Shown in pieces: positions 31,390 to 59,424 of a stretch of 64,000 bases of DNA. The stretch is taken from positions 1 to 64,000 of the forward strand of contig JAJDXK010000009.1 of NCBI GenBank assembly GCA_022823305.1, written 5' to 3'. Both the position numbers and the translations under genes were made by a program. Numbering within the stretch: position 1 is the stretch's first letter; every line of letters begins with the position of its first letter. The DNA comes from Alphaproteobacteria bacterium. Lineage in GTDB: Bacteria; Pseudomonadota; Alphaproteobacteria; UBA828. The notes under the pieces are model-generated. The model was not told the origin of the DNA. It worked only from the letters and a program-made list of their open reading frames with translations, and did no database searches.

Positions 31390-33468
31390 TCAGGCCGAGG
31401 CGCGTTCCAGGCGGACCTCTTCCACCCTGTAGGGCACGTCGGCGATGGCGCCGGCGTCGAGCTCGCGGGCGAAGCGGTGACCTTCGTAGACCGCGTGCTG
31501 GATCGTCCCGGCGGCAACGCAGTCGCCGACGCGCGCGAGGGTCCTGATCCCGGCCGCCTCCAGCTTCTCCGGCGCGGCCGACAGCGCACGGTAGAGCGCG
31601 TCCTCCGGCAGCCGCGAGGTGGCGAGAACCAGCGACTGGTAGGAGAGGTGCCGCCGCGTCTCCTCGTGATAGACGTTGTAGATCTCGATGCTGTTGTCGC
31701 CGATGTGGGCGATGTTGTGGTCGGTGATGAGCTCGATCCCCATGGAGAGGACCCGGCTCATGATCTTCTCCATCTCGAGCGTGTACTCGGTCCAGCGCGA
31801 GAGCTCCATCAGCGGCGTGACGATGGTGACCTCGTGGCCGGCGGCGCGCAGCTTCTCGGCGATGACGCCGCCCATGTAGTAGTGGTCGTCGTCGAACACG
31901 ACGACGGGGCCCTCGAGCGCCGCGCCGCCCATCACGTCGTCGGGCGTGAAGACCTTCTTGCCCTCGCTGCCCGGGATCGCGTGGGCGTTGGTGTAGGCGA
32001 CGCCGTCGCCGCGCCAGCGGGAGCCGGTCGCGACGACCACCGTCTCGGCGCCGTAGTCGAGCACGTCCTGCGCCGAGAGGCGGGTGCCGGTGTGCACCTC
32101 CACGTTCTTCATCTTCGCGATCTGGCTCACGCGCCAGTCGCGCACGCGGCCCCACGAGGCGAGGCCGGGGAGCGCGCTCTCCCGCGCCACGCGGCCGCCG
32201 ACCTCGGGCTCCGCCTCGACCAGGTGGACCGTGTAGCCCCGCATCCCGAGCGCGCGGGCGCACTCCAGCCCCGCAGGGCCGGCGCCGACGACGAGCACGC
32301 CGTCGTCCGATCCCTTCGCCTCGATGGTCTCGGGGTGCCAGCCGCGCCGCCACTCCTCGCCCGCGGTCGGGTTCTGCGTACAGCGGAAGAGGCTGGACGT
32401 GTTCTCGGCCGCGACGCACATGTTGCAGCCGATGCACTCGCGGATGTCCTCGTTGCGGTCTTCCTCGATCTTCTTCGGCAGGAAGGGGTCGGCGATGGAG
32501 GGCCGCGCCGCGCCGATGAAGTCGGTGATGCCGCGGTTGATCTGCGAGATCATCGTGTCCGGCGAGGTGTAGCGCCCGACCGTGACCACCGGCCGGTCGG
32601 TCTTCTGCTTGACGAAGGCGACGTAGGGCTCCTGGTAGGCCTCGTCGGCGAAGCGCGAGGTGGCGGAATCCTCGGCCCAGTCGCTGATGTTCACGTCCCA
32701 GAGGTCGGGCAGGTCCGAGAACATCTCGACCACCGCCTGGCCTTCCTCCTGCCATCTGATGCCGTGTTCGCCGCGGTTCTCGTCGACGGCGAGCCGGAGC
32801 GCGACCGCCGCCTTGTCGCCCACCGCCTCCTTGGTGTCCTCCAGCAGCTCGCCGATCAGCCGCGCGCGGTTCTCGACGCTGCCGCCGTACTCGTCGGTGC
32901 GGTGATTGGTGTGGGGCGAGAGGAAGTGCTGCGGCAGGGCGATATCGTGGCCGGCATAGACGTAGACGATGTCATAGCCGACGTTGACCGCGCGCTTCGC
33001 CGCCTCGACCTGCCAGCGGCGGAACTCCTTGATGTCGGCCTTGTCCATCTCGCGGGCCATGATCGGGTCCCAGTTGTAATGGACCATGTTGGCGGAGGGG
33101 CCGAGGGGGAACTCCTTGGTCTTGCGGTTGGAGAAGCCGAGCCCGTTGTGGACCAGCTCCACGGCCGCGAGCACGCCGTACTCGTGCATGGTGTCGACCC
33201 AGCCGCGCAGCTGCTCGGCGTAGTAGTCGTTCCACAGCCGGCGCTCGCCATAGGGCGCGGCGCACGAGCTGGGATGGATGCTGCACTGCTCGGTGGAGAT
33301 GATGGCCCATCCGCCTTCGGCCTTCATGCGCCGGTGCGCGACGTCCCCGTGGTGCTCCGTGTATCCCATCGCGTTGCAATGGGGCACCTGATAGAAGCGG
33401 TTTTTCGCGATCTTCGGGCCGATCTTGATCGGCGTGAACAGGACGTCGTAACGGGGGTCGCGCGCCAT
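31390..33468 (-). CDS. TMADH/DMADH-family iron-sulfur flavoprotein, paralogue A
   Basis: This 692-residue protein has an FMN-binding TIM barrel, a [4Fe-4S] Cys cluster (CIGCNMC then RCTQNP) and a C-terminal ADP/NAD-binding half (VLVVGAGPAGLECA). Cys31 in FYQVPHC matches the cysteinyl-FMN residue of trimethylamine dehydrogenase. Gln61 replaces the TMADH aromatic-bowl Tyr60, as I recall for dimethylamine dehydrogenase. The Trp after the Fe-S cysteines is absent, while the catalytic Tyr/His (VYAGHD) are kept. It is predicted to oxidise a C-N bond and pass electrons to ETF. It follows the cupin and paralogue B in one direction. Confidence 0.88.
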   Translation of the reverse strand: MARDPRYDVLFTPIKIGPKIAKNRFYQVPHCNAMGYTEHHGDVAHRRMKAEGGWAIISTEQCSIHPSSCAAPYGERRLWNDYYAEQLRGWVDTMHEYGVLAAVELVHNGLGFSNRKTKEFPLGPSANMVHYNWDPIMAREMDKADIKEFRRWQVEAAKRAVNVGYDIVYVYAGHDIALPQHFLSPHTNHRTDEYGGSVENRARLIGELLEDTKEAVGDKAAVALRLAVDENRGEHGIRWQEEGQAVVEMFSDLPDLWDVNISDWAEDSATSRFADEAYQEPYVAFVKQKTDRPVVTVGRYTSPDTMISQINRGITDFIGAARPSIADPFLPKKIEEDRNEDIRECIGCNMCVAAENTSSLFRCTQNPTAGEEWRRGWHPETIEAKGSDDGVLVVGAGPAGLECARALGMRGYTVHLVEAEPEVGGRVARESALPGLASWGRVRDWRVSQIAKMKNVEVHTGTRLSAQDVLDYGAETVVVATGSRWRGDGVAYTNAHAIPGSEGKKVFTPDDVMGGAALEGPVVVFDDDHYYMGGVIAEKLRAAGHEVTIVTPLMELSRWTEYTLEMEKIMSRVLSMGIELITDHNIAHIGDNSIEIYNVYHEETRRHLSYQSLVLATSRLPEDALYRALSAAPEKLEAAGIRTLARVGDCVAAGTIQHAVYEGHRFARELDAGAIADVPYRVEEVRLERASA

Positions 33469-33608: not shown

Positions 33609-33989
33609 CTAGGCGGCCATCTCCTCCGCGTCGGGATCGTGGATGAAGAAGACCTTGCGGACGGTCTCCTCGATCACCCAGGTCACCTGCTCGCCCTTGT
33701 GCGTGTAGAAGATGTCGCCGGCCGTGTAGGTGTGGGTGGTGCCGTCCTGCTCGGTCACGTGAATCTTGCCTTGGAGCAGGGTGCAGATCTCGTCGCCGGG
33801 ATAGGTGTATTCGAACTTGCCCGGCGTGCACTGCCACACGCCCGCCATGGTCCGCGTGCCGAAGCCGCCCAGGTCGAAGCGCCCCTCGTGCACCGGGTCG
33901 CCCTCGAGCACCTTCACGAAGGGGAGCTCACCCAGCGGCGGCCAAGGCTCGAGGCCGCCTTCGTCCTTCAGTTGCGCGTAGTCGAGCAT
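33609..33989 (-). CDS. Small cupin-domain protein
   Basis: This 126-residue single-domain cupin has strands GDEICTLLQGKIHVTEQDG and YTAGDIFYTHKGEQVTWVIEE, resembling the Cupin_3/ureidoglycine-associated group. Classical metal-binding histidines are sparse. It may be an isomerase, a small-molecule sensor or a non-enzymatic binder. It sits between two TMADH-like genes on the same strand (121 and 140 bases from them), implying a role in the same pathway. Confidence 0.8.
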   Translation of the reverse strand: MLDYAQLKDEGGLEPWPPLGELPFVKVLEGDPVHEGRFDLGGFGTRTMAGVWQCTPGKFEYTYPGDEICTLLQGKIHVTEQDGTTHTYTAGDIFYTHKGEQVTWVIEETVRKVFFIHDPDAEEMAA

Positions 33990-34110: not shown

Positions 34111-36285
34111 TCAGGCCAGCTTGGGGAAGGTCTCGTGACCCCAGACCTGGCGCTCGCGTATCCACGGGCGCGGGTATTGCGGGTCGTCCGACTCGAACTC
34201 GCGGGCCAGACGATGGCCGTCGAAGATTGCGTTGGCGACGACGCGCGGCGCGTGGCAGTCGCCGATGCGGTAGACCGACTGGATGCCCTGCCCGGCCCAC
34301 TCCGCCTGGCGCGCCTTCACCTCCCGGAACACCCCGTCGTTGCTCAGCCGGGCCGTGCACAACACCACGCTGTCGCATTCGAGCTCGGTCGTCTCGGTGC
34401 CGGCGCGGCGCGAGTACTCGCCCTTCTTCGGCGTGAGCGTGCGCACGTAGCCGTCGCGATAGAGGTAGAAGATGCTGAGCTTGACGGCGTTGCCGATCTC
34501 CACCCTTTCCGCGTAGTGGAGCGTGTGCTGCTTGATGTCCTTCTCGTGCATCATGCGGCGGATATCGTGGATCTCCTCGGTATAGACGCAGTAGGGCGCC
34601 ACGTTGTCGAGGCTGGTGACGATGGTCACGTCCTTGCCCTGGTCGGCCAGCAGCTCCGCCATGCTGACGCCGGTGAAGTAGCCCTCGTAGTCGAGCACCA
34701 CCACGCGCTCGCCGGTCTCCTTGCCGGCCATGATCTGCTCGGGCGTGCAGATCTCGGGCAGCGCGGCATCGGCGCCCTCCAGCGGGGCCTGGGTGACGCC
34801 GCCGAGGCCGTCGGTCGACCAGCGCGCGCCGGTGGCAAAGACCACCTTGTCGGCGCCGTATTCCAGAACGGCGTCGGCGCTCATCTCGCCGACCCCGGTG
34901 TGGACCTCGACGTTGCGCAGCTTGTCGAGCTGACCCTGCCGGTAGCTGGTGACGCGGCCCCACTCGGAGAGGTGGGGGTAGCGCATGATGTCGCGCATGC
35001 AGCCGCCGATCTCGTCCGCCGCCTCGCGCAGGTGCACGTCGTAGCCGCGCTCGCCGAGCACGCGGGCGCACTCCATGCCGGCCGGGCCTGCGCCGACCAC
35101 GAGCACAGAGCAGGGGTCAGGTGCGGGCTCGAACTTCTCCGGGTGCCAGCCGCGCCGGTACTCCTCCATCGAGGTCGCGTTCTGCGTGCAGATCAGCGGC
35201 GTCGTCTGCCACCACTTGGAGAGGCACATGTTGCAGCCGATGCACTCGCGGATGTCGTCGGTGCGCCCTTCCTCGATCTTCTTCGGCAGGAAGGGGTCGG
35301 CGATGGAGGGGCGCGCCGCGCCGATCAGGTCGGCCTGGCCCGACTTGACGATCTGCACCATCTCGTCGGGGCTGGTGACGCGGCCGGCGCTCACCACGGG
35401 CACGCTGCATGCCTTCTTGGCCTCCCTGATCCAGGGCGCCATGTAGTTCGACGAGGTCGAGCGCGAGGGCGCGATTTCCAGGCCGAGCTCGGAGTAGCGG
35501 CCGACCTTCATGTCCCACACGTCGCAGAGGCCCTCCCGGTCGTGCAGCTCGATGAGGCGGATGCCCTCCTCCCACACCTCGAGGCCGTCCGGCCCGTCCA
35601 TGGTGTCGACCGAGTAGCGGTATCCCACGGCGCAGTCGTTGCCGATGGCCTTCTTGGTCGCCTCCGAGACCTCGAGCGCGAAGCGGGCGCGGTTCTCCAG
35701 CGAGCCGCCGTACTTGTCCGTCCTCTTGTTGTAGTAGGGCTGCAGGAACTGGTTCATGATCATCGAGTCCGAGAGCAGGTTCTCGACGATGTCGAAGCCG
35801 GCGTCGCGCGCGCGGATCGCGGCGTCGACGTGCATCTGGATCACGGCCTTGATGTCGTCCTCGTCCATCTCGGCGGTGCTCGCGAGCGGGATCGCCTCCG
35901 ACGGCGCCTGGGTGGGGACGCGGCTCACCGCTCGGGATTCGCCGGCCTGCGAATGCAGGCCCGCGTAGTAGAGCTCGACGCCCGCCAGCGCGCCGTGCGC
36001 GTGGATGCTGTCAGTCACGTGGCGCAGGCTGATGACGTCGCCCTCGTCCCACAGGCGCGCGGACCAGTGCGGCGCATCGTCCGATTCCGGGTGGATCGCG
36101 GTGTACTCGATGCACACCGTGCCCCAGCCGCCCTCGGCCTTCATGGCGCGGAACGCCGCCTGGGTGCCGGGGCGTTCGGAGCCCGCGCTGTTGCAATGCG
36201 GTGTCTGCCAGAACCTGTTCTTGGTCGTCTTGGGGCCGACCTTGACCGGCTCGAACAGGATGTCGTGCTCCGGATTGCGCGGCAT
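34111..36285 (-). CDS. TMADH-family iron-sulfur flavoprotein, paralogue B
   Basis: This 724-residue protein has the same architecture: FMN barrel with Cys31 (FWQTPHC), [4Fe-4S] cluster (CIGCNMC then ICTQNA) and nucleotide-binding half (VLVVGAGPAGMECA). Tyr61 and the Trp near the cluster (LSKWWQ) match the TMADH aromatic-bowl residues Tyr60 and Trp355. However, the position of the third bowl Trp is Leu, and the catalytic Tyr169/His172 pair is replaced in FDIVENLLSDSM. It is therefore closer to TMADH overall but with an altered reaction centre. It is divergent from the desaturase-like gene at 36488, with a 202-base shared upstream region. Confidence 0.88.
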   Translation of the reverse strand: MPRNPEHDILFEPVKVGPKTTKNRFWQTPHCNSAGSERPGTQAAFRAMKAEGGWGTVCIEYTAIHPESDDAPHWSARLWDEGDVISLRHVTDSIHAHGALAGVELYYAGLHSQAGESRAVSRVPTQAPSEAIPLASTAEMDEDDIKAVIQMHVDAAIRARDAGFDIVENLLSDSMIMNQFLQPYYNKRTDKYGGSLENRARFALEVSEATKKAIGNDCAVGYRYSVDTMDGPDGLEVWEEGIRLIELHDREGLCDVWDMKVGRYSELGLEIAPSRSTSSNYMAPWIREAKKACSVPVVSAGRVTSPDEMVQIVKSGQADLIGAARPSIADPFLPKKIEEGRTDDIRECIGCNMCLSKWWQTTPLICTQNATSMEEYRRGWHPEKFEPAPDPCSVLVVGAGPAGMECARVLGERGYDVHLREAADEIGGCMRDIMRYPHLSEWGRVTSYRQGQLDKLRNVEVHTGVGEMSADAVLEYGADKVVFATGARWSTDGLGGVTQAPLEGADAALPEICTPEQIMAGKETGERVVVLDYEGYFTGVSMAELLADQGKDVTIVTSLDNVAPYCVYTEEIHDIRRMMHEKDIKQHTLHYAERVEIGNAVKLSIFYLYRDGYVRTLTPKKGEYSRRAGTETTELECDSVVLCTARLSNDGVFREVKARQAEWAGQGIQSVYRIGDCHAPRVVANAIFDGHRLAREFESDDPQYPRPWIRERQVWGHETFPKLA

Positions 36286-36487: not shown

Positions 36488-38008
36488 ATGGCAGACGCTG
36501 ATTACGACGCGATCATCGTGGGTGCGGGCCACAACGGTCTAGTCGCCGCCTTCTACCTCGCGCGCGCCGGGCGCAAGGTGCTGCTCTGCGAGCGCCGACC
36601 CTTCGTCGGCGGCGCCTGCGCCACCGAGGAGTTCTTCGACGGCTACCGCATCTCGACCTGCTCCTACGTCATGTGGAAGCTGGAGCAGAAGGTGCGCGAC
36701 GACATGGGGCTCGACGCGCGCGGGCTCACCATGCACCTGATCGATCCGCCCGTGTTCTTCCCCTACGAGGACGGCTCGCACGCGTTCCTGCACTACGAGA
36801 TGGAGCCCACGCTCGAATCCATCGCCCGGCTGAATGCGCGCGATGCCGAGCGCTTTTCCGACTGGGTGGACCTCTGGGGCCGGGCGACCGGGCTGGTGCA
36901 GCCCTACATGCTGGAGGACCCGCCCACGCTCACCGACATCTGGGAGCGCGCCAGGGCGCAGGGCGACGAGGCCGTGCTGGAGCGCTTCCTGACCGGCTCG
37001 CTGATCGATCTCGCGGCCGACTACTTCGAGGACGAGCGCGTGCGCGCGATGATGCTCTACGTGCAGGACATGGCCGACCCCTACGCGCCCGGCAGCGCCT
37101 GGGCCGAGACCTTCTTCCAGTTCGGCGCCGCCGGCGGGCACGGCTTCTATGTGGTCGAGGGCGGCATGGGCTCGATCACGCAGTACATGGCCGAGGCGGT
37201 CGAGGAGCAGGGCGGCGAGATCCGCTGCGACGCCCCGGTCGCGCAGGTGCTGGTGGAGAAGGGCACCGCCACCGGCATCCGCCTCGCCTCGGGCGAGGAG
37301 ATCCGCGCGCACCTGGTGCTGTCCAACGCCGATCCCAAGCGCACCTACCGCACTCTCTTCGCGCCCGATGACCTGCCGGGAGACCTAGCCAAGCGCGTCG
37401 AGCGGCTCAAGACCGACACCGGCTACTTCAAGTTTCATTGCGTGATGGACGAGCCGCCGGACGTTTCCGGCTATCTCGACGGCTATGACGGCCCGCCCGT
37501 CTCCTACATCCTGATCGCGCCGAGCCTGGACCACTATGCCCGCGCAGGCGCCGAGATGCGTGCCGGTGAGCCCTGCAGCGAGCCGATCTGTCACCTGCAG
37601 GTGCCCACCTTCTACGACAAGACCTTGACCGAGAAGGACGGCCACATCTGCTCGATCTGGGGCCTCTACGCGCCGCCGCGGCTGGCGCGGGGGACCTGGG
37701 ACGAGCGGCGTGAGGAGGTGGGCGAGGGCGTGATCGACTGGGTGACCCGCTTCGTCCCCAACTTCCGCTCCGCCATCCGCGAATGGATGTTCATGAGCCC
37801 GTGGGACATCGAGCAGCGCACCGGGATCACCGACGGGGCGATCCGCCACCTCGACGTGGTGCCGAGCCAGTTCCTCGGCGGCCGGCCCGGCTACGACACC
37901 GAGATCCGCAACTTCTACCTCTGCGGCGGCGGCACGCATCCCGCGGGCGAGGTCACCGGCGCGCCCGGCCACAACGCCGCCCACCACATCCTGCGCTCCA
38001 ACGCCTGA
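36488..38008 (+). CDS. Phytoene desaturase-like FAD oxidoreductase (PYROXD2-like)
   Basis: This 506-residue flavoprotein begins with the Rossmann motif DYDAIIVGAGHNGLVAA and the FAD-binding segment CERRPFVGGAC. The C-terminal motif YLCGGGTHPAGEVTGAPGHN closes the FAD site as in carotenoid desaturases and amine oxidase-like proteins. No carotenoid genes are nearby, so carotenoid desaturation is unlikely; oxidation of an amine or lipid is more plausible in this setting. The ATG at 36488 has GAGAGGAC upstream. It starts a four-gene plus-strand run ending at 42440. Confidence 0.85.
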   Translation: MADADYDAIIVGAGHNGLVAAFYLARAGRKVLLCERRPFVGGACATEEFFDGYRISTCSYVMWKLEQKVRDDMGLDARGLTMHLIDPPVFFPYEDGSHAFLHYEMEPTLESIARLNARDAERFSDWVDLWGRATGLVQPYMLEDPPTLTDIWERARAQGDEAVLERFLTGSLIDLAADYFEDERVRAMMLYVQDMADPYAPGSAWAETFFQFGAAGGHGFYVVEGGMGSITQYMAEAVEEQGGEIRCDAPVAQVLVEKGTATGIRLASGEEIRAHLVLSNADPKRTYRTLFAPDDLPGDLAKRVERLKTDTGYFKFHCVMDEPPDVSGYLDGYDGPPVSYILIAPSLDHYARAGAEMRAGEPCSEPICHLQVPTFYDKTLTEKDGHICSIWGLYAPPRLARGTWDERREEVGEGVIDWVTRFVPNFRSAIREWMFMSPWDIEQRTGITDGAIRHLDVVPSQFLGGRPGYDTEIRNFYLCGGGTHPAGEVTGAPGHNAAHHILRSNA

Positions 38009-38084: not shown

Positions 38085-40532
38085 ATGGACCAGGCGTTTC
38101 CCGACCAGGCGCGCGTCGTCGTCATCGGCGGCGGGGCGATCGGCTGCGCGACCGCCTACCACCTGGCGAAGCACGGCGCCGAGGACGTCGTTCTGGTCGA
38201 GAAGGCCAAGCTCACCTCCGGCTCGACCTGGCACGCGGCAGGCGCCTTCGCGCAGTTCCGCACCGACCCCAACGCCGGCAGGCTCATGGCCTACGGCGCC
38301 GACCTCTACGCCTCGCTCGAGGCCGAGACCGGCCAGGCCACGGGCTGGCGCCAGACCGGCGGCATGCGCGTCGCGTCCAACCGCGACCGCCGCCGCGAGT
38401 ACGAACGGGCGATCACGACGGCCCGCTCCTTCGGCGTCGAAATGGAGCTGATATCGGCGCAGGAGGCGCAGGCGCTCTTTCCCTTCATGACCATCGACCG
38501 CGTGGACTGCGCGCTCTACATCCCGTCCGACGGTGCGCTCAGCCCGTCGGACACGTGCATGGCACTGGCCAGGGGGGCGCGCCAGTACGGCGCCCGGCTC
38601 TTCGAGGACACCGCTGTCACGGGCTTCGAGATCGAGCGCGGACGCGTCGCCGCAGTCAACACCGAGCGCGGCACCATCCGCTGTGAGGTCGCGGTGATCT
38701 GCTGCGGCATCTGGTCGCGCGAGATCGGGCGGCTCGCGGGCGTGAATGTCCCGATCCAGCCCTCGCACCACTGCTATTTCATCACCGAGCCGATCGAGGG
38801 CGTGAGCCGCGACATCCCGACCACGCGGGACCCCGACCTCTGGCACTACATCCGCGAGGAGGTGGGCGGCCTGCTCGTCGGCCAGTACGACCCCGATCCC
38901 ATCCCCTTCGTCGAGCCCATCCCCGCGGACCATGAGTTCAAGCTCATGCCGGAGAACCTCGACCACTTCATGCCCAGGCTCGAGGGGTTGCTCGACTGGA
39001 TACCGGTGCTCAAGACCGTCGGCATCAAGTCCTGGTTCAACGGCCTGGAGTCCTTCACCGAGGACCAGAACCCGGTGATGGGGGAGGCGCCGGAGGTGCA
39101 GGGCGTCTTCGTCAGCGCCGGCTTCAACGCCTACGGGCTTACCGGCTGCGGCGGCGCCGGCATGGCGCTCGGCGAGTGGATCCTGAACGGCGAGCCGCCC
39201 TACGACATCTGGAGCTTCGACATTCGCCGCTTCGGCGGCTACCACCGCGCCGACAGCCAGGTGCTGGCGCGCTCGCTGGAGGGCCAGGGCCACCACTACA
39301 CCATCGTCTGGCCGCGCGAGGAGATGAAGGCCGGCCGACCGCTCCGGCGCAGCGCGATCTACGACCGCCTGGCGGAGAGGCGCGCCTGCTTCGGCGCCAA
39401 GTTCGGCTGGGAGCGGCCCAACTGGTTCGCGCCCGAGGAGGTCGAGCCGGTGGAGATCGAGAGCTTCGGGCGCCCCAACTGGCACGCCCACGTCGCCCTG
39501 GAGCACGCCGCCTGCCGCGACACCGCGGCGCTCTTCGACCAGTCGTCCTTCGCCAAGTTCGCGCTGGTCGGGCGCGATGCCGAGGCCTGCCTGCAGCGCA
39601 TCTGCGCTGGCGACGTCGGCAAGCCGCCGGGGCGGATCACCTACACGCAGATGCTCAACCGTCACGGCGGCATTGAGTGCGACCTCACCGTCGCGCGGAT
39701 CGCCAAGGATTCGTTCTACATCGTGACCGGCACCGGCTTCGCCACCCACGACTTCGACCACATCGGCCGCAACATCGACCCGGATGCCCATGCCTCGCTG
39801 GTGGACATCACCTCGGCCTGCGGGACGCTCGCCCTGATGGGGCCGCGGTCGCGGGCCATCCTCGCCTCGGTGGCCGAAGGCGACGTGGGCGCGAAGGCCT
39901 TTCCCTTCGGCGCGGTGCGGGAGATCTACGTGGCGGGCGCGCCCGTCCGCGCCATGAGACTCACCTTCGTGGGCGAGCTCGGCTGGGAGCTGCACGTGCC
40001 GACCGAATACCTGGTCACGGTCTACGACGCGCTGAAGGAAGCCGGCGCCGCGCACGGCCTGCGCGACGCGGGCTACCGCGCCATCGACAGCCTGCGGCTG
40101 GAGAAGGGCTACCGCGTGTGGGCGGCGGACATCGGCCCCGACTTCAACCCGCTGGAGGCGGGCCTCGGCTTCGCGGTCGCCTTCGACAAGCCCACCCCCT
40201 TCATTGGCCAGGACGCCGTGCAGAGGCAGCGGGAGCGGCCGCTTACCCGCCGCCTCGCGACCTTCACCATCGACGACGACCCCGAGGTGCAGCTCTGGGG
40301 CCGCGAGACCATCATCCGAGACGGCGAGCGCGTCGGCTGGCTCGCGTCCGCCGGCTTCGGCCACACCGTCGGCCGCAGCATCGGCATGGGTTACGTACGG
40401 AACGCGGACGGCGTGAGCGACGACTACCTGCTGGGCGGCACGTATACCCTCGAGGTGGCGACCCGCGAGGTGCCGGCCGAGATCCACCTGCGCCCGCTCT
40501 ACGACCCCGCCGGCGACCGGGTGAAGGCGTGA
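38085..40532 (+). CDS. Dimethylglycine/sarcosine dehydrogenase-type flavoprotein with GcvT-like domain
   Basis: The 815-residue protein has an N-terminal DAO domain (VVVIGGGAIGCATAYHLAKHG) and a C-terminal aminomethyltransferase (GcvT/folate-binding) region from about residue 430. His50 in GSTWHAAG matches the histidine that carries covalent FAD in dimethylglycine dehydrogenase. The folate part shows LMGPRSR, FVGELGWELH and RLEKGYR. It is predicted to demethylate an N-methylglycine-type substrate, giving methylene-THF or formaldehyde. The next gene follows after 28 bases. Confidence 0.9.
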   Translation: MDQAFPDQARVVVIGGGAIGCATAYHLAKHGAEDVVLVEKAKLTSGSTWHAAGAFAQFRTDPNAGRLMAYGADLYASLEAETGQATGWRQTGGMRVASNRDRRREYERAITTARSFGVEMELISAQEAQALFPFMTIDRVDCALYIPSDGALSPSDTCMALARGARQYGARLFEDTAVTGFEIERGRVAAVNTERGTIRCEVAVICCGIWSREIGRLAGVNVPIQPSHHCYFITEPIEGVSRDIPTTRDPDLWHYIREEVGGLLVGQYDPDPIPFVEPIPADHEFKLMPENLDHFMPRLEGLLDWIPVLKTVGIKSWFNGLESFTEDQNPVMGEAPEVQGVFVSAGFNAYGLTGCGGAGMALGEWILNGEPPYDIWSFDIRRFGGYHRADSQVLARSLEGQGHHYTIVWPREEMKAGRPLRRSAIYDRLAERRACFGAKFGWERPNWFAPEEVEPVEIESFGRPNWHAHVALEHAACRDTAALFDQSSFAKFALVGRDAEACLQRICAGDVGKPPGRITYTQMLNRHGGIECDLTVARIAKDSFYIVTGTGFATHDFDHIGRNIDPDAHASLVDITSACGTLALMGPRSRAILASVAEGDVGAKAFPFGAVREIYVAGAPVRAMRLTFVGELGWELHVPTEYLVTVYDALKEAGAAHGLRDAGYRAIDSLRLEKGYRVWAADIGPDFNPLEAGLGFAVAFDKPTPFIGQDAVQRQRERPLTRRLATFTIDDDPEVQLWGRETIIRDGERVGWLASAGFGHTVGRSIGMGYVRNADGVSDDYLLGGTYTLEVATREVPAEIHLRPLYDPAGDRVKA

Positions 40533-40560: not shown

Positions 40561-41532
40561 ATGAGCGACAAGCCCCTCTCCGATGACGAGGTCTATTCGC
40601 TGGTCGGCGGCTCGCGCGGCATGGAGGCGCGCAGCGGCGCCGCGATCGAGCGCGCCCGCGCACTCCCGATCTGGAACGGTCCGGTGGAGCCCGCGCTGCT
40701 GAGCGGGGGCCTCAGCAACATCAACCTGACCGCGGAGGATGCGGGCCGGCGCTACGTGATCCGCGTCGGCGAGGACGAGCCCTTCTTCGGCGTCTCCCGC
40801 GCGCACGAGCTTCAGGCCTTTCGCGCGGCCCATGCGGCGGGCGTCGCGCCCGAGGTGATCCATGCCGAGCCCGGCCTGCTGGTGATCCGCTTCATCGAGG
40901 GCCGCTCCCTGCTGCCGGCCGACATGCACGAGCCCCAGCGCCTGCTCAAGGCGGCCCGCCTCTTCCGCCAGCTCCACCGCGAGGCGCACAAACACCTGGA
41001 ATCGCCGGGCTTCATGTTCTGGCCCTTCCAGCACCACCGCTGGTACATCCGGCTGCTGCACGAGCGTTCCGACCGGCTCCACGAGCGCTGGCGCGCCATG
41101 CTGCCGGCGCTCGCGGCGGCGAACGAGGCGCTGGAGCGCGCCATCGGCCCGGCCACCGTCGTCTTCGGCCACAACGACCTCAACCCGCAGAACATCATGG
41201 ACGATGGCGAGCGGCTCTGGTTCGTGGACTGGGAGTTCGGCGGCTTCGTGGCGGACCTCTTCGACCTCGGCGTGCTGGCCATGAACATCGAGATCAGACC
41301 GGACGAGATCGACCCCTATCTCGAGGCCTACTTCGAGGCGCCGGCCACGGACGAACTGCGCTACCGCTTCGCCGCCGCGACCGTCACCGCCGCGCTGCGC
41401 GAGACCACCTGGAGCTTCGTCTCCGAGGTGATGGACAAGCCGATCGACTTCGACTTCCGCATCTACTCCACCATGAACGCGGAGCGCTACGAGCGCATGT
41501 ACGCGGAGTTCCGCAACACCTACGGCACCTGA
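40561..41532 (+). CDS. Choline kinase/aminoglycoside phosphotransferase-like kinase
   Basis: This 323-residue protein has the APH-fold catalytic motif GHNDLNPQNIM and the metal-binding FVDWEFGGF. The glycine-rich start LLSGGLSNINL is the ATP-binding loop. Among APH-fold kinases this pattern is closest to choline/ethanolamine kinases. It probably phosphorylates a small alcohol or amino-alcohol in the pathway rather than an antibiotic. It is embedded between the DMGDH-like gene and the hydrolase with 28 and 20 base spacers. Confidence 0.85.
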   Translation: MSDKPLSDDEVYSLVGGSRGMEARSGAAIERARALPIWNGPVEPALLSGGLSNINLTAEDAGRRYVIRVGEDEPFFGVSRAHELQAFRAAHAAGVAPEVIHAEPGLLVIRFIEGRSLLPADMHEPQRLLKAARLFRQLHREAHKHLESPGFMFWPFQHHRWYIRLLHERSDRLHERWRAMLPALAAANEALERAIGPATVVFGHNDLNPQNIMDDGERLWFVDWEFGGFVADLFDLGVLAMNIEIRPDEIDPYLEAYFEAPATDELRYRFAAATVTAALRETTWSFVSEVMDKPIDFDFRIYSTMNAERYERMYAEFRNTYGT

Positions 41533-46723: not shown

Positions 46724-46757
46724 CTGGTCCGTGCACTGTCACCCAGTCAGGAAGGGC

Positions 46758-46792
46758 GGGGCGGGCGCTCGTCACGTGGTATTGCCCGCCCC
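46758..46792 (-). promoter_or_regulatory. Second hairpin just after the livK stop
   Basis: GGGGCGGGC and GCCCGCCCC form a perfect 9-bp stem with a 17-base loop, starting 11 bases past the binding-protein stop. With the 46698-46723 hairpin it makes a tandem structure in the operon spacer. Confidence 0.5.
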
Positions 46793-46802
46793 TTGCGCAT
46801 GC

Positions 46803-50372: not shown

Positions 50373-50434
50373 GCCCGGGCCTGCGGTCGCCGGAGCCGGA
50401 AGACGGCGCGCGAACAGAGGCGAGGGCAGGGCCC

Positions 50435-52112: not shown

Positions 52113-53030
52113 TTGACCACACACGGGATGGTCCAGACCGGCTCCACGCGCACCTTCATGTGGTTCTGCATGGGCCCGGTCCTGCTGCTGCTGATCATCG
52201 TGGCGGTCGCGCCTGTCACCTTCGCCATCATCGACAGCCTGCGCGACCTCTCGCTGGCCATGCCGAGCAAGCGCGGCCAGTTCGTGGCGCTCGACAACTA
52301 CCGCGACCTGCTGGGCACGGACGGGAACTTCTACCGCTCGCTGGGGCATACGGCGATCTTCATGATGATCGCCGTGCCCATCGAGCTTGCGCTCGGGCTC
52401 CTCATCGCACTCTGGATCAACCGGGAGTTCGCGGGGCGTCGGCTGGTCCTCACCATCCTCATGATCCCGACCATGATCGCGCCGGTGGTGGTCGGCATGA
52501 TCTGGCGCTTCTTCCTGATGCCGAGCTTCGGCGTGATGACGGTCTACCTCAATCGCCTGGGGCTCTTCGAGGAGACCAGCGTCTTCTCCGGGCCGATCAC
52601 CGCCTTCGGCGCGCTCATCATCATCGACATCTGGGAATGGACGCCCTTCATCATGCTGATCATGCTGGCGGGGCTCTCCGCGCTGCCCCAGGCCCCCATC
52701 GAGGCGGCGACCATCGACGGGGCCTCGCGCTGGCAGATCTTCCGCCACGTCCAGCTGCCCATGCTGGGGCCGCTCATCGTCGTCGCTGTCATGCTTCGCG
52801 CCATCGACGCCAGCAAGGTGTTCGACACCATCTACGTGCTCACGGGCGGCGGGCCCGGCAACGCGACCGAGGTCATCTCGACCTTCGCCTACCGAACCAA
52901 CTTCATCCGCTGGGACCTAGGCTACGGGGCCGCGGTCTGTCTTGTGCTCGCCTTCGCCTCGCTGGTGGTGGCGGCGCTCTTCTTCAAGACGGTGAGCGGG
53001 AAGGCCAAGGCCGTGGACGAGACGCCATGA
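52113..53030 (+). CDS. Carbohydrate-type ABC permease, MalF/UgpA-like
   Basis: This membrane permease of about 305 residues has six main hydrophobic segments. The EAA coupling motif EAATIDGASRWQIFRHVQLP is typical of the MalF/UgpA group. The start is read as TTG at 52113, with an in-frame ATG at 52128 as alternative; the GGCGGGGG upstream favours the TTG. It overlaps the next permease by ATGA. It belongs to a transporter whose ATPase is on the opposite strand and whose likely binding protein is at 59467. Confidence 0.9.
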   Translation: MTTHGMVQTGSTRTFMWFCMGPVLLLLIIVAVAPVTFAIIDSLRDLSLAMPSKRGQFVALDNYRDLLGTDGNFYRSLGHTAIFMMIAVPIELALGLLIALWINREFAGRRLVLTILMIPTMIAPVVVGMIWRFFLMPSFGVMTVYLNRLGLFEETSVFSGPITAFGALIIIDIWEWTPFIMLIMLAGLSALPQAPIEAATIDGASRWQIFRHVQLPMLGPLIVVAVMLRAIDASKVFDTIYVLTGGGPGNATEVISTFAYRTNFIRWDLGYGAAVCLVLAFASLVVAALFFKTVSGKAKAVDETP

Positions 53031-53857
53031 ACCGGCGCAGCCTCATCACGCACAGGCTCGTCGGCTTCGCGGTGCCTCTGCTGCTGCTGCTGGCAGTGGC
53101 GCTGATCCCCTACATCTGGATCCTGCTCGCCAGCTTCAAGACGCGCGGCGAGCTGATCTCGCCAGAGCCGAAGTGGGTCTTCGATCCCACGACGATCAAC
53201 TACACCGAAATCATTTACAGGGGGTTCGACGGCTACCTGCTGAACTCCGTGATCATCGGCTTCTCGAGCACGGCGCTCACCGTCTTCGTAGGCACCCTCG
53301 CGGCCTACGGCTTCTCACGCTTCAAGATTCCGGCCGGCAACCACCTCTTCTTCTACATCCTGGCGACCCGGCTCGGCCCGCCGGTGGCCTACGCGCTGCC
53401 GATGTACCTGATCTTCCGGGAGCTCGGCCTCGTCAACACCTATGCCGGCGTGATCCTCGCGCACACCACCTTCAATCTTGTCCTGGTGGTCTGGATGATG
53501 CGCTCGTTTTTCGACGACGTGCCGCGCGAGGTCGAGGAGGCGGCCTATCTCGACGGCTGCGGGCACTTCCGGGTGCTGTGGACGATCACCATACCGATGA
53601 CCTACCCGGGCCTCGCCGCGGTCTCGATCTTCGTCCTGATCTTCTCCTGGAACGAGCTGCTCTTCGCCCTGATCCTCACGGGCGGCGACACGCGCCCGCT
53701 GACCGTCATGATCCCCTCGCTGGTCCTCCACACGGGGACGCAGTGGGGCCAGGTCGCCTCGGCCTCGATCATCCAGAGCATCCCCGTGCTCGTCTTCATC
53801 TTCTTCATCCAGAAGAAGCTGGTTCAGGGCCTCACCTTCGGCGCCGTCAAGGGTTAG
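53027..53857 (+). CDS. Carbohydrate-type ABC permease, MalG/UgpE-like
   Basis: This 276-residue permease has the EAA loop EEAAYLDGCGHFRVLWTITIP and six predicted membrane segments. The ATG overlaps the previous stop (ATGA), indicating coupled synthesis of the two channel subunits. Its stop overlaps the stop of the convergent ATPase gene, sharing TTAG. Confidence 0.9.
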   Translation: MNRRSLITHRLVGFAVPLLLLLAVALIPYIWILLASFKTRGELISPEPKWVFDPTTINYTEIIYRGFDGYLLNSVIIGFSSTALTVFVGTLAAYGFSRFKIPAGNHLFFYILATRLGPPVAYALPMYLIFRELGLVNTYAGVILAHTTFNLVLVVWMMRSFFDDVPREVEEAAYLDGCGHFRVLWTITIPMTYPGLAAVSIFVLIFSWNELLFALILTGGDTRPLTVMIPSLVLHTGTQWGQVASASIIQSIPVLVFIFFIQKKLVQGLTFGAVKG

Positions 53858-54933
53858 GCGCGGAGGCGCATTCCCGAGTCGGTGTCGAAGGCCATGATGT
53901 TGGCCGGCTCGGTCCAGAGGCTGATGTCGCTGCCGTGGTCGACGCCGTCGTTGCGGGGGAGCCGTGCGACGAGCGTGGGCCCTGCCGTCGACACCTCGAG
54001 GATGGTCTCCGCGCCGAGATGCTCCACCGCCTCGATGCGCCCGGCGAGCTCGACGGCGCTCGCGCTCGGCTGCAGGTCCAGGAACTCGGGCCGGATGCCG
54101 AGGGTGACGGCGTCCGTGCCGCCTGCCGGATGCGCGGCCGGGAGGGAGAGGTCGAGCCCGTCTGTGCGGAACGCGATGGCGCCGTCGCGCGCACCGGCCG
54201 CACCTTCGACGAGGTTCATGGCGGGGCTACCGATGAAGCCCGCGACGAAGGCATCGTCGGGGTCGTCGTAGACCTCCAGCGGCGTGCCGACCTGGCGAAT
54301 CTCGCCCTCGTGCATCACCACGATGCGGTCGCCCATGGTCATCGCCTCGATCTGGTCGTGGGTCACGTAGATCATGGTGGTGTCGAGGCGATGGTGCAGC
54401 TTGATGAGCTCGCCGCGCATGGCGACGCGGAGCTTGGCGTCGAGGTTCGACAGCGGCTCGTCGAAGAGGAACACGGCGGGGTCGCGCACGATCGCGCGGC
54501 CGAGCGCGACGCGCTGCTGCTGCCCGCCCGAGAGCGTCTTGGGCTTGCGCGGAAGCTCCTCGGTGAGCCCGAGGGTGGCCGCCACCTCGCGTACGCGGGC
54601 GTCGATCTCCTCGCGCGGGAGCTTCCTGATCTTGAGCGCGAAGCCCATGTTCTCCGCCACCGTCATGTGCGGGTAGAGCGCGTAGGACTGGAACACCATG
54701 GCCACGTTGCGGTCCTTGGCGTGGACCTGGGCCACGTCGGTGTCGCCGATGAAGATGCTGCCCGATGTCACCGTCTCCAGGCCCGCGATCATGCGGAGAC
54801 ACGTGGTCTTGCCGGAGCCGGAGGGGCCGACCAGGACGACGAACTCGCCGGAGCGGATGGCCAGGTCGACCGCATCCACCGCCACCACCGCGCCGAAGCG
54901 CTTGGTCAGGCCCTCGAGGCGCACGTCGGTCAT
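53854..54933 (-). CDS. ABC ATPase, MalK/UgpC family
   Basis: This 359-residue ATPase has Walker A GPSGSGKTT, signature LSGGQQQR, Walker B VFLFDEPLSNLDA and the H-loop YVTHDQIEAM. A C-terminal TOBE/OB domain (about 240-359; LGIRPEFLDL) is present. It energises the two permeases encoded on the opposite strand. Its ATG shares one base with the stop of a 52-residue membrane protein gene (TGATG), so translation of the two is coupled. Confidence 0.93.
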   Translation of the reverse strand: MTDVRLEGLTKRFGAVVAVDAVDLAIRSGEFVVLVGPSGSGKTTCLRMIAGLETVTSGSIFIGDTDVAQVHAKDRNVAMVFQSYALYPHMTVAENMGFALKIRKLPREEIDARVREVAATLGLTEELPRKPKTLSGGQQQRVALGRAIVRDPAVFLFDEPLSNLDAKLRVAMRGELIKLHHRLDTTMIYVTHDQIEAMTMGDRIVVMHEGEIRQVGTPLEVYDDPDDAFVAGFIGSPAMNLVEGAAGARDGAIAFRTDGLDLSLPAAHPAGGTDAVTLGIRPEFLDLQPSASAVELAGRIEAVEHLGAETILEVSTAGPTLVARLPRNDGVDHGSDISLWTEPANIMAFDTDSGMRLRA

Positions 54934-55091
54934 CAGATCACACCCAGGTAGACGAACTCGGCCGCGATGAAGAGGGCGACGCCCCAGAAGCGCACCTCGC
55001 CCGGCGTCAGCCACCGCTTGCGCGTGTTCCACACCCCGATCAGGAGAATGAACGGCACGCACACCGCGGCGACGAGGAAGTGCTCCAGCAT
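54933..55091 (-). CDS. 52-residue membrane protein coupled to the ABC ATPase
   Basis: This short protein (starts MLEHFLVAAVCVPFIL, ends EFVYLGVI) has two hydrophobic segments separated by a basic loop (NTRKRWLTPGE). The stop overlaps the ATPase start by one base. The positive loop suggests an N-out/C-out hairpin. No family is recognised with certainty; small membrane proteins also occur in some glycerol-type ABC transporter operons. It could be a transporter accessory subunit. Confidence 0.65.
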   Translation of the reverse strand: MLEHFLVAAVCVPFILLIGVWNTRKRWLTPGEVRFWGVALFIAAEFVYLGVI

Positions 55092-55094
55092 TGC

Positions 55095-55500: not shown

Positions 55501-56850
55501 ATGGAGGGAATGGAGCGCTACCTCAAGCTCGACGAGGGCCTCGTCAGCCGCCGCATCTTCTTCGACCCGGAGGTCTACCGGCTGGAGCTCGAGCGCATCT
55601 TCGCGCGCTGCTGGCTCTTCCTCGGCCACGAGTCGCACATCCCCGAGTCCGGCGACTACATGACGGCCTACATGGGCGAGGACCCGGTCATCGTCTGCCG
55701 CGGCGACGACGGAACAGTGCGCGCCTTCCTCAACTCATGCCGCCACCGCGGCATGAAGGTGTGCCGGGCCGACCGCGGCAACGCGCGCCAGTTCACCTGC
55801 AGCTTCCACGGCTGGACCTACGCCAATGACGGCCGGCTCAAGGGCGTGCCGCTGGAGCACGATGCCTACGGCGACCGCCTCGACCGCGACCGCTGGGGCC
55901 TGCTCGAGGTGCCCAAGCTCGCGCTCTACGGCGGCATGATCTTCGGCAACTGGGACTCGGGCGCAGACAGCCTCGACGACTTCCTGGGCGAGCTGCGCTG
56001 GTACCTGGACGTGATGATCGAGCGCCAGGTAGGCGGGCTCGAGTTCGTTCCCGGGTGCCAGCGCTATTCGCTGGACGCCAACTGGAAGATCGCGAGCGAG
56101 AACTTCACCGGCGACACCTACCATCTGCCCTATTCGCACGGGTCGATGTACAAGCTCGACATCCCGCAGATCAATCCGGCCAACCCGAGCTTCCGAGGCA
56201 GCGAGGACGCGTACTTCAACATCGGCCTCGACAACGGCCACGGCATGACCGGCGTGGTCTTCGGCGGCGAGCGCTACGACGTGGACCGCGCACTCGCGAA
56301 GAGCTACGGCCCCGAGGTGGTGGAGTACGTGGAGGAGTGCCAGCAGCGCCTGCTCAAGGCGTTGCCCCGGCACCAGGCCGGGGTCTACGCGCTCTCCTTC
56401 AGCAACATGTTCCCCAACCTCTCGTTCAACGACTTCAGCGCTCTCAGGCCGATCGGCTTCTACCTGTGGGTGCCCAAGGGACCGCAGCGGCTGGAGGCCT
56501 GGAACTGGTGCGCGCTCGACCGCGATGCGCCCAAGGTCATCAAGGAGCAGGCGCGCGTCGACTTCACGCGCATCCAGGCGGTCAGCGGCATCGCCGCGCA
56601 GGACGACACCGAGAACTTCGAGCAGGTGACCGAGGCCACACGCGGCGTGGTGGGCCAGCGGCTGGACTTCAACTACCAGATGAACGTCGGCCAGCCCCTG
56701 CTTCAGGGGCCGGAGGGCTGTCCCGGGCGCTTCGCCCCCTACATCTCGGAGACCAACCAGCTCAACTTCTACCAGCACTGGGCGGCGCTGCTCGATGCGC
56801 CCTGGTCGGGTCGGACGCATGGTCGACGCCGCGCTGCAGCACCGCGTTGA
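55501..56850 (+). CDS. Rieske non-heme iron oxygenase alpha subunit
   Basis: This 449-residue protein has the Rieske [2Fe-2S] ligands Cys80, His82, Cys100 and His103 (CRHRG then CSFHGW). The mononuclear-iron helix has NFTGDTYHLPYSH with His208 and His213. Length and the adjacent beta subunit gene place it with alpha-beta type ring-hydroxylating dioxygenases. Its C-terminal 10 residues overlap the beta gene by 32 bases in another frame. No reductase or ferredoxin gene is adjacent. The substrate is unknown; the setting suggests an N-heterocycle or N-methyl compound. Confidence 0.92.
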   Translation: MEGMERYLKLDEGLVSRRIFFDPEVYRLELERIFARCWLFLGHESHIPESGDYMTAYMGEDPVIVCRGDDGTVRAFLNSCRHRGMKVCRADRGNARQFTCSFHGWTYANDGRLKGVPLEHDAYGDRLDRDRWGLLEVPKLALYGGMIFGNWDSGADSLDDFLGELRWYLDVMIERQVGGLEFVPGCQRYSLDANWKIASENFTGDTYHLPYSHGSMYKLDIPQINPANPSFRGSEDAYFNIGLDNGHGMTGVVFGGERYDVDRALAKSYGPEVVEYVEECQQRLLKALPRHQAGVYALSFSNMFPNLSFNDFSALRPIGFYLWVPKGPQRLEAWNWCALDRDAPKVIKEQARVDFTRIQAVSGIAAQDDTENFEQVTEATRGVVGQRLDFNYQMNVGQPLLQGPEGCPGRFAPYISETNQLNFYQHWAALLDAPWSGRTHGRRRAAAPR

Positions 56851-57316
56851 GCAGTTTCTCTACCGCGAGGTGCGCCTGCTGAGCGAGCTGCGCTTCGAGG
56901 AGTGGCTCGACCTCTTCACCGACGATGCCCGCTACTGGATGCCGGCGCGCGAGACGGTCGGCGACCGGCCCGACGCCGTGGCCGCCGACGGCGAGATGGC
57001 CTTCTTCGACGACGACAAGCCCTTCCTCGCCGCGCGCATCGAGCGGCTGCGCTCCTCGCTGGCCCATGCCGAGCAGCCGCCCTCGCGCATGCGCTATTTC
57101 GTCTCCAACGTGGAGGTCGAGGAAGCCGGCGGCGAGGAGCTCGACGTGCGCTGCAACCTGCTGGTCCACCAGTCGCGCCTGGAGCGGACGGAGGTGCTCT
57201 ACGTCGGGCGCCGCGAGGACCGGCTGCGCCCCGAGGGCGAGTCCTGGCGCATCGCGCTGCGCAAGGTGATCCTCGACCAGACCCTGATCCCCCGGACCAT
57301 GTCCACGTTCTTTTGA
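56819..57316 (+). CDS. Rieske oxygenase beta subunit
   Basis: This 165-residue NTF2-fold protein (HRVEQFLYREVRLLSELRFEEWLDLF, RYFVSNVEVEE) matches the small subunit of aromatic-ring dioxygenases. The ATG at 56819 is preferred because the family begins near VDAALQHRVEQF; a frame extension to 56795 exists. It overlaps the alpha gene and is followed after 41 bases by the third TMADH-like gene. Confidence 0.9.
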   Translation: MVDAALQHRVEQFLYREVRLLSELRFEEWLDLFTDDARYWMPARETVGDRPDAVAADGEMAFFDDDKPFLAARIERLRSSLAHAEQPPSRMRYFVSNVEVEEAGGEELDVRCNLLVHQSRLERTEVLYVGRREDRLRPEGESWRIALRKVILDQTLIPRTMSTFF

Positions 57317-57357: not shown

Positions 57358-59424
57358 ATGACCCGCGACCCCCGTTTCGACGTCCTCTTCGAGCCCGTGC
57401 AGATCGGCCCCGTGACGGCGCGCAACCGCTTCTTCCAGGTGCCGCACTGCTGCGGCATGGGTCACCTGATGCCGCAGTCCGATGCCGCCATGCGCAGCAT
57501 GAAGGCCGAGGGCGGATGGGCCGTCGTGTGTACGGAGCAGTGTTCGTTCAGTCCTCTCGGCGAGGCCGCGCCCTATCCCGAAACCAAGCTGTGGGACCAG
57601 GACGACGTCATCCGCATGCGGCACTGGACCGATACGGTCAAGGCGCACGGCGCGCTGGCCGGCACCGAGCTCATCAACAACGGCTCCGCGCTCTCCAACC
57701 TCTACAGCCGGGAGATCCCGCTCGGGCCGTCGGCCTCGCCCGCGACCTACACCTACGACCCGGTTCAGGCGCGCGCCATGGATCTCGACGACATCCGCGA
57801 GTTCCGCCGCTCGCATCGCGACGCCGTCCTGCGGGCCGTGGATGCGGGCTTCGACCTGATCTATGTCTATTGCGCCCACGACATCGCCCTGCCGATGGAT
57901 TTTCTCTCACCGCGCCGCAACCGCCGGACGGACGCCTACGGCGGCAGCTTCGAGAACCGGGTGCGGCTCCTGCGCGAGGTGCTGGAGGACACGGTGGAGA
58001 CCGTGAACGGCAGCGTGGCGGTGGGCCTCAGGTTCGCGACCGACGAGCTGCTCGGCTCTGACGGCATCACCTGGGAGGACGAGGGCTGCAAGGTCATTGA
58101 GCTGCTGGCCGACCTGCCCGATCTCTGGGACGTCAACGTGAGCGACTGGATCCACGATTCCGCGAGCTCGCGCTTCACCTCGGAGGGCCATCAGGAGCCC
58201 TACATCGCCTTCGTCAAGGGCATGGTGAAGAAGCCGGTCGTCTGCGTGGGCCGCTATACCTCGCCGGAGACCATGCTCTCGCTGATCACGCGGGGGGTCG
58301 CCGACTTCGTCGGCTGTGCCCGGCCCTCCATCGCCGACCCCTTCATCCCCCGCAAGATCGAGGAGGGGCGTCTCGACGACATCCGCGAATGCATCGGCTG
58401 CAATATCTGCGTGACCGGGCAGCACCTGAAGACGCCGATGCGCTGCACCCAGAACCCCACTGTCGGCGAGGAGTGGCGCCGCGGCTGGCATCCCGAGGAG
58501 ATCGATCCCAGGGGCTCCGACTCCTCGGTGCTGGTGGTGGGAGCCGGGCCGGCCGGCCTGGAATGCGCGCTCGCGCTCGGGCGGCGCGGCTACCGCGTCG
58601 GGCTCGCCGAGGCCACGCGCGAGCTCGGCGGGCGGGTGAGCGACGAGTGCACGCTGCCGGGGCTTTCAGAGTGGGCGCGTGTGCGCGACTATCGCACTTA
58701 CCAGATCGAGAAGCTGCACGAGGTGGTTGAGGTCTTTCGCGAGAGCGAGATGACGGCCGAGACGGTGCTCGAAGCCGGCTACCGGCACGTGGCCATCGCC
58801 ACGGGCTCGCGCTGGCGCAAGGACGGTATCGGCCGCTGGCACACCGCGGCGCCGGTCCCGGGTAGCGATGCCCCGCACGTGCTCACGCCCAACGACATCT
58901 TCGCCGGCACCGTGCCGGCCTCGCCGGTGGTGGTGTTCGACGACGATCACTTCTACATGGGCGCCTCGCTCGTGGAGAAGCTCGCGGGAGACGGACTCGA
59001 AGTCATCCTCGTGACGCCCGCGGCGGTGGCCGCCGCCTGGGCCGAGGAGGCCCTGGAGCAGCACGGCATTCAGTCGAACCTCGTCAAAATCGGCGTGCGG
59101 ATCGTCACCGGCCACAACCTGACACGGATCGACGCAGGCGGGGTGCAGGTGGCGGGCGTCTACGGCGAGGGCGAGAGGTCCATCGAGTGCGCTTCCGTCG
59201 TGATGGTGACCTCGCGGCTGCCCAACGACGCGCTCTACTACGCGCTCAAGGACGCGCCCGATCGCCTCGCCGACGCCGGCATCCAGTCGGTGAGCCGGAT
59301 CGGCGATGCCGTCGGTCCCGGTCTGATCGCAGCTGCGGTGTGGAGCGGGCACCGCTTCGCCCGCGAGCTGGATGCGCCGCCGCCGGGCGACGTTCCCTTC
59401 AAGCGCGAGTTGGTGTTCGTGTGA
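57358..59424 (+). CDS. TMADH/DMADH-family iron-sulfur flavoprotein, paralogue C
   Basis: This 688-residue protein has the FMN barrel with Cys31 (FFQVPHC), [4Fe-4S] cysteines (CIGCNIC then RCTQNP) and the nucleotide-binding half (VLVVGAGPAGLECA). Like paralogue A it has Gln61 in place of the TMADH bowl tyrosine, keeps the catalytic Tyr/His (VYCAHD) and lacks the Trp after the cluster. It is much closer to A than to B. The ATG at 57358 has GGAGGGACC upstream. It sits between the Rieske pair and the binding protein gene, all on one strand. Confidence 0.88.
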   Translation: MTRDPRFDVLFEPVQIGPVTARNRFFQVPHCCGMGHLMPQSDAAMRSMKAEGGWAVVCTEQCSFSPLGEAAPYPETKLWDQDDVIRMRHWTDTVKAHGALAGTELINNGSALSNLYSREIPLGPSASPATYTYDPVQARAMDLDDIREFRRSHRDAVLRAVDAGFDLIYVYCAHDIALPMDFLSPRRNRRTDAYGGSFENRVRLLREVLEDTVETVNGSVAVGLRFATDELLGSDGITWEDEGCKVIELLADLPDLWDVNVSDWIHDSASSRFTSEGHQEPYIAFVKGMVKKPVVCVGRYTSPETMLSLITRGVADFVGCARPSIADPFIPRKIEEGRLDDIRECIGCNICVTGQHLKTPMRCTQNPTVGEEWRRGWHPEEIDPRGSDSSVLVVGAGPAGLECALALGRRGYRVGLAEATRELGGRVSDECTLPGLSEWARVRDYRTYQIEKLHEVVEVFRESEMTAETVLEAGYRHVAIATGSRWRKDGIGRWHTAAPVPGSDAPHVLTPNDIFAGTVPASPVVVFDDDHFYMGASLVEKLAGDGLEVILVTPAAVAAAWAEEALEQHGIQSNLVKIGVRIVTGHNLTRIDAGGVQVAGVYGEGERSIECASVVMVTSRLPNDALYYALKDAPDRLADAGIQSVSRIGDAVGPGLIAAAVWSGHRFARELDAPPPGDVPFKRELVFV

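Follow-up and report, generated by a model that had tools for sequence, protein, structure and literature searches.

Three trimethylamine dehydrogenase-like paralogues with contrasting active-site residues in one alphaproteobacterial gene island

Trimethylamine dehydrogenase (TMADH) is a textbook enzyme, and its Tyr169/His172/Asp267 triad and aromatic bowl (Tyr60, Trp264 and Trp355) are regarded as the defining features of amine oxidation within the family to which it belongs. The described enzymes most relevant here are the TMADH of Methylophilus methylotrophus W3A1 (2tmd and 1djn), the histamine dehydrogenases of Nocardioides simplex (3k30) and Rhizobium sp. (6de6), and 6-hydroxypseudooxynicotine (6-HPON) amine oxidase (HisD, 6l6j; Pno in Agrobacterium tumefaciens S33). 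Dimethylamine dehydrogenase from Hyphomicrobium X, DgcA and StcD are also related to TMADH. Here we describe three paralogues of this family, A, B and C, which span no more than 28 kb within a 64,000-nucleotide stretch of an alphaproteobacterial genome of the UBA828 lineage (assembly GCA_022823305.1, contig JAJDXK010000009.1, positions 1 to 64,000; 'the window'). All three retain the cofactor ligands, and each departs in its own way from the active sites of the characterised enzymes.

Both characterised histamine dehydrogenases carry Gln60 (PMC10180351), and both have Asp where TMADH has Trp355. In a saturation mutagenesis of the Rhizobium enzyme, Tyr171, Phe176, Trp263, Asp265 and Asp354 were intolerant of change and activity was abolished (PMC10180351); these residues correspond to TMADH positions 169, 174, 264, 267 and 355, respectively. 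Pno releases methylamine instead of taking off a methyl group (PMC5500553). Histamine dehydrogenase and 6-HPON amine oxidase cleave the larger C–N bond, so that N-demethylation cannot be assumed for those family members, A and C among them, that lie on the same side of the family.

The open reading frames of A, B and C are intact (692, 724 and 688 amino acids), and each product matches TMADH and histamine dehydrogenase end to end, over the OYE-type barrel and the nucleotide-binding domains (~700 residues). The TMADH numbering used throughout was verified by finding Cys30, Tyr60, Tyr169, His172, Arg222, Trp264, Asp267, Cys345/348/351/364, Trp355 and Tyr442 on the expected letters. The original prediction, which gave the coordinates of the three genes correctly and left out their strands (minus for A and B, plus for C), had all three keep the cysteinyl-FMN Cys and the [4Fe-4S] cysteines, and the alignment agrees: Cys30 and Cys345/348/351/364 are present in each. 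On the explanation favoured below, each of the three is an amine dehydrogenase of the 6-S-cysteinyl-FMN/[4Fe-4S]/ADP type, in which a C–N bond would be oxidised at the flavin and the electrons would leave by way of the cluster; their probable acceptor is an electron-transfer flavoprotein (ETF). A search of NCBIfam with the three proteins returned no equivalog above cut-off. In trees whose characterised members are TMADH, the two histamine dehydrogenases and 6-HPON amine oxidase, the family divides with 100% support into a TMADH side, which includes B, and a histamine-dehydrogenase side, which includes A and C; no single clade of known activity holds all three.

B is the most unusual of the three paralogues, and A and C are less surprising. 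By sequence and by fold, the best match of B in the Protein Data Bank is TMADH (~50% identity), and an AlphaFold model of B (mean pLDDT 91.9, pTM 0.91) superposes over its whole fold on 2tmd with TM-scores of 0.96/0.95 and a root-mean-square deviation of 1.8 Å (Foldseek). B shares with TMADH not only the cofactor cysteines but also Tyr60, Trp355 and Arg222; unlike TMADH, it lacks Tyr169, His172, Trp264 and Asp267. Aligned to TMADH at positions 30-60-169-172-264-267-355, B reads Cys30 Tyr60 Leu169 Asp172 Leu264 Glu267 Trp355. With Leu169, Asp172 and Glu267 the entire triad is altered, and with Leu at 264 the aromatic bowl of TMADH proper is incomplete. The loss of the Tyr169/His172 pair and of the second Trp (264), with Tyr60 and Trp355 retained, had been noticed from the letters alone; the Glu residues at 167 and 267 (Tyr and Asp in TMADH) and the Met at 174 (Tyr in TMADH) had been overlooked. 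B therefore departs from TMADH at four of the five mutation-intolerant positions (169, 174, 264 and 267). Position 442, which in TMADH is a Tyr on the ETF side, is an Arg in B.

The altered pocket of B is stable across its orthologues. All six, with 82-91% identity to B for those from five other genomes, carry the same letter at each pocket position scored; a relative with 73% identity has nearly the same pocket. All three genes are under purifying selection: the ratio of nonsynonymous to synonymous substitution rates (dN/dS) is 0.08-0.12 in B, compared with 0.09-0.17 in A and 0.18-0.20 in C. Between the B orthologues and the lineage with the canonical TMADH pocket, 28 positions are fixed differently, 26 of them in residues 1-370, the catalytic half (Fisher p = 6e-4 against other conserved columns). 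Fixed pocket letters together with a low dN/dS show that these residues stem neither from chance nor from sequencing noise, and argue against decay. They also bear on the possibility that B is non-catalytic, be it structural, regulatory or decaying, which could be read from the change of all three triad residues and from the genome of a relative (G007) that lacks B and keeps A and the remaining cluster. We regard this as very unlikely: Cys30, the cluster ligands and Arg222 are retained, the changed residues are themselves fixed under the strong constraint just described, and the wider Asp172 subfamily, with the same loss of His172, has HDR-type Fe-S and ETF genes nearby in 5 of 25 loci.

Phylogeny places the change within the TMADH side. 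B falls in a 12-row clade with enzymes that have Asp172 and Phe355 or Met355 (support 98/96, and 99/98 when the pocket columns are removed), apart from the clade of 2tmd and its 74-82% identical plasmid homologues. This clade is nested in one of 27 rows in which the remaining early branches, with a gene on contig C127 of the same genome among them, show the complete TMADH pocket; this marks the altered pocket of B as derived. A single origin of Asp172 was considered and not upheld, as it is recovered at 89/88 with all columns and two changes are needed once 62 pocket columns are left out; given this dependence on columns, the claim is limited to B plus a ten-row clade. Members of the wider Asp172 group come from Shinella, Tabrizicola, a Zoogloeaceae assembly and Glaciimonas, among others. 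The loss of His172 extends over Alpha-, Beta- and Gammaproteobacteria, and the acidic Glu167/Asp172 pocket is common to B and an uncharacterised proteobacterial subfamily. A literature search restricted to open-licence papers found none on this Asp172/B subfamily. Another pocket variant on the TMADH side is seen in two paralogues (loci L046 and L083) with Ala at the Tyr60 position, which adjoin glutamine-synthetase-like, PhyH and aldehyde dehydrogenase genes.

As to mechanism, B comes from a TMADH-like lineage, and in it the triad and part of the aromatic pocket gave way to Glu167, Leu169, Asp172, Leu264 and Glu267. It would transfer hydride directly to the flavin without a Tyr-His-Asp triad, the substrate probably being larger and bearing a second cationic group; such a group suits a pocket that has traded aromatics for three acids (Glu167, Asp172 and Glu267) better than trimethylamine does. 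Some loci of the Asp172 group have amino-acid permeases and aldehyde dehydrogenases nearby. We tentatively propose, while thinking it somewhat improbable as a whole, that B and its Glu167/Asp172 relatives are an undescribed subfamily of triad-free cysteinyl-FMN amine dehydrogenases whose acidic pocket accommodates a dicationic or hydroxylated substrate, and that A, with the cupin described below, belongs to a second undescribed module. If true, a natural branch under selection that keeps all cofactor ligands and has aliphatic and acidic residues in place of its triad would show how far the chemistry of the family depends on the triad residues.

A and C resemble histamine dehydrogenase. The bit scores are 716 to histamine dehydrogenase versus 578 to TMADH for A and 745 versus 579 for C, with ~50% identity to the two characterised enzymes. 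At the seven positions listed for B, A reads Cys30 Gln60 Tyr169 His172 Trp264 Asp267 Glu355 and C reads Cys30 Gln60 Tyr169 His172 Trp264 Asp267 Gln355; both thus share Gln60, the Tyr-His-Asp triad and Trp264 with histamine dehydrogenase (residue roles: PMC10180351), and differ from it in having Glu (A) or Gln (C) for Asp355. Position 174 is Ile in both, again differing from histamine dehydrogenase, so that 174 and 355 are the two of the five mutation-intolerant positions at which they depart from that enzyme. The 6-HPON amine oxidase is on the A/C side as well (47-48% identity, with Tyr-His-Asp and Trp264) and differs from A and C in an Ala at the cysteinyl-FMN position and a Val at 355. The original prediction had likened the Gln60 of A and C to that of dimethylamine dehydrogenase and had noted the lost Trp355 and the retained Tyr and His. 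The residues correspond as described, but Gln60 and the lost Trp355 do not single out a dimethylamine dehydrogenase-like enzyme, since the histamine dehydrogenases share both features and score far closer to A and C than TMADH does. Judged from the sequences compared, Gln60 and the loss of Trp355 are ordinary on this side of the family. The broader picture drawn there, with substrate-site residues altered in A and C and reaction-site residues in B, is borne out by the alignments.

In the trees A sits in a branch made up of Glu355 enzymes (support 99/91) and C in a separate one with its genus orthologues; both lie outside the clade in which 6-HPON amine oxidase joins the two histamine dehydrogenases, and the branches of the histamine-dehydrogenase side meet deep in the careful tree without a resolved order. 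With the triad retained, A and C may oxidise amines in the manner of histamine dehydrogenase, and Glu or Gln for Asp at 355 would alter the distal pocket to hold a different distal group. Elsewhere in the same genome, contig C75 encodes a closer relative of histamine dehydrogenase (57-58% identity).

Gene neighbourhoods give an indication of reaction type, as a folate aminomethyltransferase domain takes up the methyl group following demethylation. Counted within 7 kb of the gene and uncorrected for genome relatedness, such a domain accompanies 12 of the 15 genes whose TMADH pocket is canonical, 2 of 25 in the Asp172 group, none of the 41 members of the Asp355 group on the histamine-dehydrogenase side and none of the four C orthologues. 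For B (3 of 6 loci) and A (5 of 12 loci) the domain is contributed by a dimethylglycine-dehydrogenase-like gene. A different association concerns Glu355: of 13 family genes of the Glu355 type, 11 have an EutQ-like cupin gene no further than 5 kb away, and cupin and Glu355 amine dehydrogenase could possibly constitute an undescribed two-gene module. Such neighbourhood rules (folate acceptor with TMADH pocket, cupin with Glu355) could sort the numerous family members annotated only as 'FAD-dependent oxidoreductase' into demethylases and others.

For A, a known activity in a divergent branch has to be considered, namely that of a DgcA-type dimethylglycine demethylase or a StcD-type (proline-betaine) N-methyl amino acid demethylase. 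The dimethylglycine-dehydrogenase-like and PhyH genes nearby are consistent with it, as is a Glu355 enzyme with cupin in Leisingera, whose operon also has choline sulfatase and betaine-aldehyde dehydrogenase genes and which stands apart from A in the tree. Glu355, however, would not be expected to favour a carboxylate-bearing substrate, and we consider this assignment unlikely, though a serious contender. An attempt to anchor DgcA through neighbouring Rieske proteins gave no hold, with 0 of 9 passing the cut-off of the glycine betaine monooxygenase model.

The original prediction went further and suggested that the three enzymes form one N-demethylation sequence; as successive N-demethylases they would strip one methylated substrate, such as a compound of the betaine type, step by step until the primary amine is left. 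Their placement within 28 kb of an island that is partly conserved in the genus, the folate-linked dimethylglycine-dehydrogenase-like gene adjoining A and B, and the wealth of GCV_T proteins in the genome (14 matches) speak for such a series. C, however, lies beside an aromatic dioxygenase without a folate acceptor; B is lost in one relative and C in another, which shows them to be separable; and A and C are on the side of the family to which the deaminating enzymes belong, histamine dehydrogenase and 6-HPON amine oxidase among them. A single sequence is therefore improbable in our judgement.

The explanation that we favour, at a little less than an even chance, is that of an island for the catabolism of methylated or quaternary amines, in which A and B may share a substrate family and an aromatic amine may be the substrate of C. 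A, with its cupin, would oxidise an amine that comes before the step of the folate-linked dimethylglycine-dehydrogenase-like enzyme, perhaps one linked to choline or methylated amines, and C would serve within a ring-dioxygenase operon. Several observations weigh against this explanation. B adjoins the dimethylglycine-dehydrogenase-like gene and may thus still be an N-demethylase; the ring dioxygenase beside C does not prove an aromatic substrate for C; no gene for an ETF was seen within the window, the two ETF-alpha genes of the genome lying elsewhere; and the genus that has A, B and C together is known from metagenome assemblies only. This genus is uncultured, and the label 'marine' rests on the titles of some related assemblies.

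The island itself recurs. A, the cupin and B, together with the CrtI-like, dimethylglycine-dehydrogenase-like, kinase and hydrolase genes (Table 1), are found in genomes of the same genus with local losses: besides the relative without B, G006 lacks the CrtI-like gene and also C, although A and B are present. The pair of dioxygenase and C recurs in G002, G005 and G007, and in G002 a 28-bp contig overlap inside PhyH joins both blocks in the order C, solute-binding protein, PhyH, A, cupin, B. Recurrence with scattered losses indicates that the island is real in the genus and that its parts come and go. That three such genes share one island had been taken as telling; the arrangement is indeed partly shared across the genus, but it is not unique. 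Roseovarius sp. TE539 has three genes of the TMADH/histamine dehydrogenase family in tandem (locus L128, 3716-10583), and the present genome (3.8 Mb in 157 contigs, of which the window is contig C18) has 11 Oxidored_FMN genes, so that A, B and C are three of 11.

Table 1. Features of the window around the three paralogues.
Feature	Coordinates	Strand	Remarks
A: cysteinyl-FMN/[4Fe-4S] amine dehydrogenase-like	31390..33468	-	Histamine-dehydrogenase side; Gln60 Glu355; triad intact
EutQ-like cupin (Cupin_3)	33609..33989	-	Between A and B
B: TMADH-side paralogue	34111..36285	-	Tyr60/Trp355 retained; Tyr169/His172/Trp264/Asp267 to Leu/Asp/Leu/Glu
B codons Leu267 to Glu270	35476..35487	-	TMADH Trp264 to Asp267; position counted
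B codons Leu170 to Asp173	35767..35778	-	TMADH Tyr169 to His172; position counted
FAD oxidoreductase, amine oxidase/CrtI superfamily	36497..38008	+	Start approximate; conserved neighbour of B
Dimethylglycine/sarcosine dehydrogenase-like (DAO + FAO_M + GCV_T + GCV_T_C)	38085..40532	+	Putative folate-linked N-methyl oxidation
Choline/ethanolamine kinase-fold protein	40561..41532	+	
Alpha/beta hydrolase	41553..42440	+	
Short-chain dehydrogenase (SDR)	42454..43239	-	
Liv-type ABC transporter: LivF, LivG, LivM, LivH, LivK-like	43280..48113	-	
Hydantoinase/oxoprolinase A and B pair	48351..52066	+	Nearest NCBIfam model caprolactamase, below cut-off
ABC transporter: two permeases (+), MalK/UgpC-type ATPase (-)	52113..54990	mixed	
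Aromatic-ring-hydroxylating dioxygenase alpha subunit	55501..56850	+	
Ring-hydroxylating dioxygenase beta subunit (Ring_hydroxyl_B)	56795..57316	+	
C: amine dehydrogenase-like	57358..59424	+	Histamine-dehydrogenase side; Gln60 Gln355; triad intact
Solute-binding protein of ABC transporter	59467..60861	+	Conserved beside C
PhyH-type Fe/2-oxoglutarate dioxygenase	60941..61876	-	Directly adjoins A in four relatives

Some neighbours that might have pointed to a substrate did not hold up on closer comparison. The Rieske protein encoded, with its beta subunit, next to C was considered as a betaine- or carnitine-N-demethylating oxygenase; its best matches are naphthalene, 3-phenylpropionate and biphenyl dioxygenases (316 bits versus 79 bits for carnitine monooxygenase), and the accompanying beta subunit also speaks against such a role. 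The hydantoinase pair was rejected as a marker of creatinine degradation in view of its model match, and no such pair was seen in the loci of the relatives. The 'amine oxidase' next to B is not of the monoamine-oxidase type, its nearest solved structures being carotenoid desaturases. On the far side of C and its solute-binding protein, PhyH is accompanied by urease accessory genes.

The genome as a whole offers a wider setting for the three paralogues. The gene on contig C127 (locus L044, 7185-9374), with its full TMADH pocket, stands beside GcvT-type aminomethyltransferase and Liv transporter genes, and it is likely to be the real trimethylamine dehydrogenase of this organism. A canonical-pocket paralogue and a histamine-dehydrogenase-like one, together with A, B and C, would make this one genome a ready test set for the family. 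The 14 matches to the GCV_T folate domain within 3.8 Mb suggest a broad use of N-methyl compounds by the organism. For the kinase-fold gene of the island, curated models come no closer than GntI, the kinase of the guanitoxin pathway, with a score far below the cut-off (118 bits against 357); its product probably phosphorylates an amino alcohol as a distant member of the kinases.

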